From Chthoniobacterales bacterium (GTDB taxonomy: Bacteria; Verrucomicrobiota; Verrucomicrobiia; Chthoniobacterales; Terrimicrobiaceae): DNA of 64,000 bases. The notes below the pieces were generated by a model that was not told where the DNA came from, ran no database searches, and saw only the letters and a program-made list of their open reading frames with translations. A program made the translations under genes and the position numbers. Position 1 is the stretch's first letter. Every line of letters starts with the position of its first letter. Positions 25,310-63,793 of the stretch are shown one piece after another. The stretch is from contig JACSRU010000108.1 of NCBI GenBank assembly GCA_014879575.1, positions 24,334-88,333 on the forward strand, read 5' to 3'.

Positions 25310-25546
25310 GGGTCAGTCCCATAACTTATAATAGACTCCGAACCTGAAAATGCCGAGGATGGCCTCATGATCAAATGTGTTTCAATCCCGCCACAAAAGT
25401 CTCCCCATCGAGGAAGGGCGATCGCTGCCTGGGTTGGTCAACTCCATTTACCTGAACTCTGTCTGCGGGAGGCTTGCCCCCTTGCTGAATTGCGGACCTT
25501 TCCTTGAGCCGCGATTACGAGAAATTATAAAATATGGGACTGACCC
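25310..25546. mobile_element. Small non-coding element bounded by 23-bp imperfect inverted repeats (MITE/REP-like)
   Basis: Left end 25310..25332 GGGTCAGTCCCATAACTTATAAT; right end 25524..25546 ATTATAAAATATGGGACTGACCC (reverse complement GGGTCAGTCCCATATTTTATAAT); 21/23 matches. No credible ORF inside. Confidence 0.72.
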
Positions 25547-26676
25547 TTTTTTGTCACCTCATCCTTCTCGTCGCTGCTGTTTCTGCTGCGACAGGAGGGC
25601 AGGATGCCGGCCGGGTTGTGGAATCCGAGGAAGGGAAGTTCCGAATCGAAATGGTGGCCGAGGGGCTCGAGGCACCGTGGGGCATGGAGAAGCTTCCCGA
25701 CGGGCGCTTCCTCGTCACCGAGCGCCCTGGACGGCTGCGGGTGATTGAGAACGGAAAGCTGCTCGAGGCTCCGGTCGAGGGAGTTCCAGAAGTGCGCGCC
25801 AAGGGCCAGGGCGGGTTGCTGGATATCCGCCTTCATCCCGATTATGAAAAAAACAGATGGCTCTACCTCACTTTTTCCAAGCCGTTGCCAAAGGGGACGC
25901 TCACCTCGGTGGTCCGGGCGCGGCTCACGGACAATCGCCTGACAGACACGGAAACCCTCTTCGATCCCCCTGCGGAAGAGGCGTCAGAAGGAGGTGCTCA
26001 TTTTGGGAGTCGCGTGGTGTTCGACGGCAAGGGGCATGTGTTTTTTTCCATTGGCGACCGGGGGGATGTCACCACCCCGGCCAACCAGGCCCAACGATTG
26101 GATAATGTAAAAGGCAAGGTGCTCCGGTTGAAGGACGATGGAACGATTCCGGGGGACAATCCGTTTGTGCATCAGCCCGGAGCCAATGCCGCCATCTGGT
26201 CCTACGGGAACCGCAATCCGCAGGGCCTTGCCATTCAACCGGGAAGCGGACTGTTGTGGGCCACCGAACATGGTCCACGCGGTGGGGATGAACTCAACAT
26301 CATCCGCAGGGGAGAGAACTACGGGTGGCCGGTCGCGACCTACGGCATCAACTACAGCGGCATTCCAATCACGGACAGTCCCTCCGCGCCCGGTATGCGG
26401 GATCCGGTCAAACAATGGACGCCCTCCCCCGGTGTTTGCGGGATGGCATTTTACGTCGGTGATGCCTTTCCGGGATGGAGGGGCAACCTGTTCGTTGCGT
26501 CCCTCGCCCAGGCCCGGTTGTTTCGTCTGAAACTCGAAGGGGAAACCGTAGTTCACCAGGAAGAGCTTCTCAGTGGCACGGGTCGCATTCGGGATGTAAG
26601 GTGCTTTGACGACGGCACCCTTTACGTCATCTATGACCGGCCTGGGTGCATCGTGCGGCTGGTTCCGGCGTGGTAA
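25534..26676 (+). CDS. PQQ-dependent aldose sugar dehydrogenase-like protein, predicted secreted
   Basis: MGLTLFCHLILLVAAVSA signal-like N-terminus; EGLEAPWGMEKLPDGRFLVTERPGRLRVI...GQGGLLDIRLHPDYEKNRWLYLTFS...NRNPQGLAIQPGSGLLWATEHGPRGGDELNIIRRGENYGWPVATYGINYSG. Confidence 0.88.
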   Translation: MGLTLFCHLILLVAAVSAATGGQDAGRVVESEEGKFRIEMVAEGLEAPWGMEKLPDGRFLVTERPGRLRVIENGKLLEAPVEGVPEVRAKGQGGLLDIRLHPDYEKNRWLYLTFSKPLPKGTLTSVVRARLTDNRLTDTETLFDPPAEEASEGGAHFGSRVVFDGKGHVFFSIGDRGDVTTPANQAQRLDNVKGKVLRLKDDGTIPGDNPFVHQPGANAAIWSYGNRNPQGLAIQPGSGLLWATEHGPRGGDELNIIRRGENYGWPVATYGINYSGIPITDSPSAPGMRDPVKQWTPSPGVCGMAFYVGDAFPGWRGNLFVASLAQARLFRLKLEGETVVHQEELLSGTGRIRDVRCFDDGTLYVIYDRPGCIVRLVPAW

Positions 26677-63361: not shown

Positions 63362-63651
63362 CCACAAGCGTTTCCGGAAGTCACTTCCTGCGCTCCGAAA
63401 AACCTTCCTGTTTTGCACGGCCTGCTGGTGAATCACTCGACTTTTTTTCCCAAGGAAATAAAGTCCCCTCATGGCGCGCGGCACCAACATTTGTCCTTAT
63501 TGCGAGATTCCCGTGGAGATGTCACAATGACGCTGTCCGCCGTGCCGACAACAGATTCTTTTGGAAGCGCGGGGCACCATGGTTCTGTGGACCTTGGGAG
63601 AAATTCGCTCCGGAATCCTCGGGGGGCTGCCGGCCCATTTGTCGGAGCATT

Positions 63652-63673
63652 TTATAAAATATGGGACTGACCC
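63652..63673. repeat. Second copy of the GGGTCAGTCCC element terminus
   Basis: TTATAAAATATGGGACTGACCC, identical over 22 nt to 25525..25546. Confidence 0.85.
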
Positions 63674-63793
63674 CTTATGGGAGTATCCTTGCGGTTTTGA
63701 GCGGGGTCTTGTTGGCGCTTTGTTATGCGCCGGTGGGCTGGGGGGATCTTTGTTGGTTGGCACTTGTTCCCCTGATTTCCGCAGCGTGGCTGC
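63661..63793 (+). CDS. N-terminal fragment of a membrane protein, apolipoprotein N-acyltransferase (Lnt)-like
   Basis: ATG within the repeat: MGLTPYGSILAVLSGVLLALCYAPVGWGDLCWLALVPLISAAW; Lnt-like first TM segments, then similarity is lost at the junction near 63790. Confidence 0.45.

Follow-up and report, generated by a model that had tools for sequence, protein, structure and literature searches.

Positions 63652–63673 of the window (the whole stretch of DNA analyzed, 64,000 nucleotides) raise the question of whether a mobile repeat can supply a host gene with its start codon. The 22-mer at this site, TTATAAAATATGGGACTGACCC, was confirmed to be an exact match of 25525–25546, both copies being on the + strand, as an earlier note on this DNA had reported. 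The 22-mer had zero matches in 100 dinucleotide-preserving shuffles of the window, and an inverted copy with two mismatches is located at 25310–25331. An ATG begins nine bases into the 22-mer (63661–63663 in the second copy), and the tip read outward encodes M-G-L-T-P-S. This sequence forms the terminal inverted repeat (consensus AATTATAAnTTATGGGACTGACCCCTTCT), or outward tip, of elements that carry a Y1/REP-associated-type transposase and of their internally deleted derivatives, which together make up a family at the species level. Based on the analyses below, we consider it probable that the tip of this Y1 element acts as a replacement start at four genes, with the native start lost and the tip ATG in frame.

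The events that we envisage are that an element end landed at a gene's first codons, or that a neighboring deletion left the end there, and that the native start was lost. Either insertion or an end-adjacent deletion, we infer, would have removed the old start. Alleles would then have survived where the tip ATG was in frame and usable as a new start, and translation in the cell would begin at the repeat's ATG. At all four genes the residues affected would be the N-terminal ones of a signal peptide or first transmembrane helix, which may tolerate replacement.

Two window genes that probably begin on the repeat

The features of the window that bear on this question are as follows.

25310–25546, + strand: non-autonomous (MITE-like) element of 237 bp, transposase bases 0–60 joined to ~340–466 between inverted ends
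25310–25332, − strand: left inverted end of the 237-bp element
25374–25502, + strand: remnant of the Y1 transposase frame (HVFQSRYKSLLIEEGRS... region), 60–70% identical (tblastn 1.3e-11 and 4.8e-9)
25525–25546, + strand: right inverted end, with the ATG (25534) on which the dehydrogenase gene starts
25534–26676, + strand: secreted PQQ-type glucose/sorbosone dehydrogenase, 380 aa (PF07995, E = 2.6e-125), with a predicted signal peptide beginning MGLT from the repeat
63652–63676, + strand: single outward end (terminal inverted repeat) of the Y1 family, with no partner end upstream
63661–63788, + strand: lnt (apolipoprotein N-acyltransferase), 5' part, with the repeat's ATG as its start and its continuation on contig C127
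63789–64000 (~212 bases), no strand assigned: probable chimeric contig end, 71% GC, with a Variovorax-like NAD(P)H oxidoreductase C-terminus on the − strand

The dehydrogenase frame is open over the whole 380 aa, and there was no other in-frame ATG, GTG or TTG before the conserved region. Relatives of this protein start with MTILRKLPTIPRPGAFSSSFCLLLATLATLGAG (73% identical overall) or MQPWQLPLRHAVIFLLLGCGLASA, whereas here it starts with MGLTLFCHLILLVAAVSAATGG. The earlier note had taken both genes on the repeat to encode membrane proteins; this was borne out for Lnt at 63661, but the product of the gene at 25534 is the secreted dehydrogenase.

The 237-bp element lies ~18 bases from the stop of an upstream rimO-like gene, and its frame remnant reads VFQSRHKSLPIEEGRSLPGLVNSIYLN where the transposase has VFQSRYKSLLIEEGRSLLGLVNYIHLN. 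A sibling of the same structure, 243 bp in length, is present at C10:9771–10013, with 164 of 189 positions identical inside and 22 of 24 at each end. Both copies are short, contain no intact transposase and share their ends with an autonomous element; judged by this structure, they are MITE-like deletion derivatives of the transposase gene. The element at 25310 does not have the native first codons of the dehydrogenase on its other side. As such, a simple insertion does not explain their loss, and an end-adjacent deletion or other rearrangement must have removed them.

At the second gene, the ATG at 63661 opens MGLTPYGSILAVLSGVLLALCYAPVGWGDLCWLALVPL, which aligned with the Lnt N-termini of relatives and had a weak match to the LNT_N profile (E = 0.0099), in agreement with the Lnt-like start proposed in the earlier note. 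The starts in relatives are MFRAW-ILAFLSG, MKRFWPW-FAALLSG and MSRILPW-LLSVLSG, compared with MGLTPYGSILAVLSG here, and the orthologue alignment would place the native lnt start within the repeat or immediately beside it. At both window genes, therefore, comparison with orthologue N-termini indicated that the native start has been replaced by that of the repeat.

The lnt gene is single-copy in this genome. Its apparent break at ~63789 is explained by a contig end that is probably foreign: the window ends where contig C7 ends, the oxidoreductase at the contig tail had its best plasmid matches in Variovorax (62–68%), and contig C127 begins with the rest of lnt, intact and in frame (TIGR00546 positions 62–393). 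From these sequences, the break is most likely an assembly chimera and not biology, a warning that a gene seemingly broken at a contig end may be a chimera.

No matching left end was found upstream of 63652, as had been noted previously; the best inverted candidates needed 10 edits, a level reached by every shuffle, and a hidden left partner was rejected as not above chance. A tblastn search for a transposase remnant upstream of 63652 gave no significant match. The likeness of this end to other copies runs ~11 nt further in (TCGGA.GCA..), to the ends on the transposase 5' side at L018 and L049. A short frame, MARGTNICPYCEIPVEMSQ (zinc-ribbon-like, CPYC), at 63471–63530 lies between a methylmalonyl-CoA mutase-like gene and the 63652 end and is possibly a gene remnant. 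The two window copies are identical over 22 bases because both carry A in place of T two bases ahead of the ATG. This change was absent from the other ends, and both ends that have it are start-donating.

Probable start replacements across the genome

Pattern searches of the whole assembly (3.6 Mb, 178 contigs) identified 25 exact occurrences of the core TATGGGACTGACCC, and 0 of its reversed control. With one mismatch allowed over TATAANTTATGGGACTGACCC there were 31 ends, and ~31 was used as the total. The exact end was absent from the three congeneric genomes searched and from 389 other genomes of the phylum sample; one exact match outside this genome was in a Kiritimatiellae MAG. In that distant class, contig JAHDSS010000418.1 (L060, 297–1652) has one exact 24-nt end copy and three degenerate copies, each preceded by CACAGAGGCRCAGAGG-like repeats, and there was no transposase match within 8 kb of them.

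Comparison with repeat-free orthologues identified four genes, lnt, the dehydrogenase gene and genes on C10 and C82, in which the native start is absent and the repeat's ATG is in frame. These comparisons indicate that four ends have replaced native start codons in frame. The C10 gene (9783, − strand) encodes a small membrane protein that begins MGLTPSPLWKVVLFSSLMLVLAAASNA, compared with MPSLPVPSRRLLRVAAFSVAMLVLAAASNA in the one orthologue found (58% identical), and it has an in-frame ATG also a few codons later. The C82 gene (449, + strand) encodes a phosphatase-like secreted protein that begins MGPTPFQHFLLFMMCFPSLLSAE, compared with MKSRTLLLALACALPGLLSAE in an orthologue and MKIHPALLALFGMFPAILSAE in the genome's own paralogue; a second in-frame ATG occurs a few codons downstream. 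All four replaced-start genes encode an exported or membrane protein whose signal peptide or first transmembrane helix is kept. Codon usage supported the ATG frame directly downstream of the end at 63661, 25534 and C82, and was mostly consistent with it at C10.

The earlier note had suggested a recurrent mode of start-codon or promoter capture. The start-codon part of this suggestion was supported at the four genes, but no suitable promoter was found. The sole outward sigma70-like match, at 25504–25533, abuts the ATG at 25534, so its start point would fall past the ATG, and no outward promoter was found upstream of 63661; promoter capture was therefore not supported. By eye, there was no Shine-Dalgarno sequence at the usual distance from the ATG at 63661 or 25534.

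An alternative is that the ends adjoin these genes by chance, the genes being 5'-truncated and dead, or starting at a downstream non-ATG codon, with the MGLT reading having no role. The lack of an outward promoter suited to the ATG is in keeping with such an explanation, as are three other in-frame ends, upstream of genes on C10 (+ strand, a TPR protein), C177 (galactopyranose mutase-like) and C51, at which a plausible native start follows; these three were for that reason not counted as captures. However, the dehydrogenase frame is open throughout and has no alternative in-frame start before its conserved region, and lnt has no second copy and continues intact on C127. In addition, the four start-less genes are all in frame with the end's ATG, for which the chance would be 1 in 81 if frame had no bearing, although the cases were partly found by their frame. 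We consider chance adjacency unlikely.

For the preferred reading, in which the tip ATG has become the start, the frame count has the same limit: candidates were recognized by in-frame reading, so that four of four in frame fits use of the tip ATG but is partly ascertained. Among the other ends no out-of-frame 5' truncation was noticed, and the remaining same-strand neighbors each start from a codon of their own further downstream; recA-, nuoH- and hpf-like genes, identified by eye, are among them.

How many such cases would be expected depends on what is assumed about survival. The tally of the ATG as a gene start, which the earlier note had proposed, gave four of ~31 ends. Under uniform insertion, 0.1–0.2 in-frame landings in the first 10–20 codons are expected among 31 ends, far below the four observed. 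If gene-breaking insertions are purged, such that only intergenic or in-frame insertions survive, 0.8–1.6 captures are expected; the observed number is ~2–5 times this expectation, and the Poisson tail for four captures is ~0.01–0.08. The excess being modest once gene-breaking insertions are purged, no special targeting of gene starts is shown. The simplest reading is a survivor effect without targeting, in which the end's ATG rescues some insertions.

These numbers also bear on a more active form of capture, in which the element would prefer gene starts for insertion, or its tip would carry a promoter as well. The count of replaced starts relative to the uniform expectation would favor it, and several other ends lie ~90–130 nt upstream of the recA-, nuoH- and hpf-like genes. 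However, 0.8–1.6 captures are expected under purging, the perfect TATAAT (-10-like) within the tip is oriented inward, facing the transposase, and the closest related family has no ATG at its tip. Active capture is, in our view, very unlikely.

The element family and its transposase

That the repeat is mobile, as had been supposed, was supported by the ~31 ends and the transposase genes linked to them. Y1 transposase genes (Y1_Tnp, PF01797) adjoin ends on three contigs. On C43 the Y1_Tnp gene is 80 bp from an end, and an open frame of 296 residues begins 34 bases in from an end. A truncated transposase copy on C52 lies between two inverted ends, and another on C134 adjoins one end. The C43 transposase matched the NF047646 profile (REP_Tyr_transpos) at E 9.8e-17 and 61.2 bits, below the cut-off of 80, and its best PDB match was 4er8 TnpArep (E 7e-4). 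As in RAYT systems, the repeats both flank a transposase gene (C43, C52 and C134) and are dispersed in the genome (~31 ends).

Across the order, Y1 transposase homologues are bracketed by inverted ends with a AAGGGGTCAG-like tip, the inner sequence differing. The closest relative (62% identity) and most others have no ATG at the corresponding place of their ends, and the generality of the tip ATG across relatives was thereby rejected. What the relatives have in common with the family in this genome is limited to the AAGGGGTCAG tip; the ATG is a feature of this family. In the order-wide relatives (L171–L188), TTGAC often comes next on the inner side of the AAGGGGTCAG-like tip and may be a -35 box of the transposase.

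This genome also has a second Y1 family, with inverted ends AAGGGGTCAGGCATGACATATTAACA (L137 at G000:C82, 88–231; L154 and L156 on C135; L065 on C144). One derivative, at C82, is 144 bp long, C135 has a transposase gene of this family, and the outward end of this TGTCATGCCTGACCC family also carries ATGs (ATGTCATGCCTGACCCC).

A canonical REP is defined by a 5' GT[AG]G tag and a hairpin stem of at least 7 bp (PMC6006769). The ends of the family studied here have no GT[AG]G tag, their flank consensus being GA(N)G instead, and the end folds to a 3-bp stem (z -0.4), no better than shuffles. It is extremely improbable that the repeat is a canonical REP or REPIN, acting as a regulatory or mRNA-stability hairpin and not as an element end: the REP-associated kind of transposase and the REPIN-like paired inverted ends lean that way, but the tag and stem are lacking, and two ends pair with each other at the scale of an element and bracket transposase genes.

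Relation to known elements

In common with RAYT/TnpA-REP (NF047646) and its REPs and REPINs, the family has a Y1 HUH-type transposase (with an NHYHLAL motif and, further downstream, the tyrosine of NYIHLNPVRAG), inverted repeats on either side of the transposase gene, and non-autonomous copies, both paired and single, that are dispersed. It differs in that the transposase scores below the NCBIfam cut-off, that tag and stable hairpin are missing, and that the ends are 24–29-bp inverted repeats with a AAGGGGTCAG tip. The 237–243-bp derivative, of which two copies have the same structure, resembles bacterial MITEs formed by internal deletion in keeping both ends and two transposase pieces; unlike those of bacterial MITEs, the parent is of Y1 type and many copies are single ends.

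Mobile repeats fused in frame to genes are already known. Rickettsia palindromic elements are found in frame within genes and become part of host proteins (reviewed in PMC10969869), but they insert inside reading frames, whereas in this genome the start codon and first residues are taken over by an element end. The enterobacterial repeat RU-2 forms the N-terminus of YP_0349, with ~30 residues from the repeat (PMC2759123). Here a small repeat likewise supplies a protein N-terminus, but the contribution is 4–6 residues and four genes share the one tip. A literature search, of partial coverage, found no account of a Y1-element end as a recurrent start-codon donor.

A stronger claim would be that the tip is a portable translation start: it would make insertion at the 5' end of a gene less costly, and it would have been fixed repeatedly as the true start in genes for exported proteins, the normally essential lnt among them. 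We regard this as quite unlikely; if it is correct, the element-tip sequence itself would be under selection for a host-compatible reading.

These data describe Y1 elements with AAGGGGTCAG tips as a group found across the order. They also provide, in four genes of one genome with repeat-free orthologues, probable cases of mobile-element ends serving as start codon and first residues, one of them in lnt. The N-terminal regions of exported proteins appear to tolerate replacement, so that a transposon end with an in-frame ATG can be fixed there.
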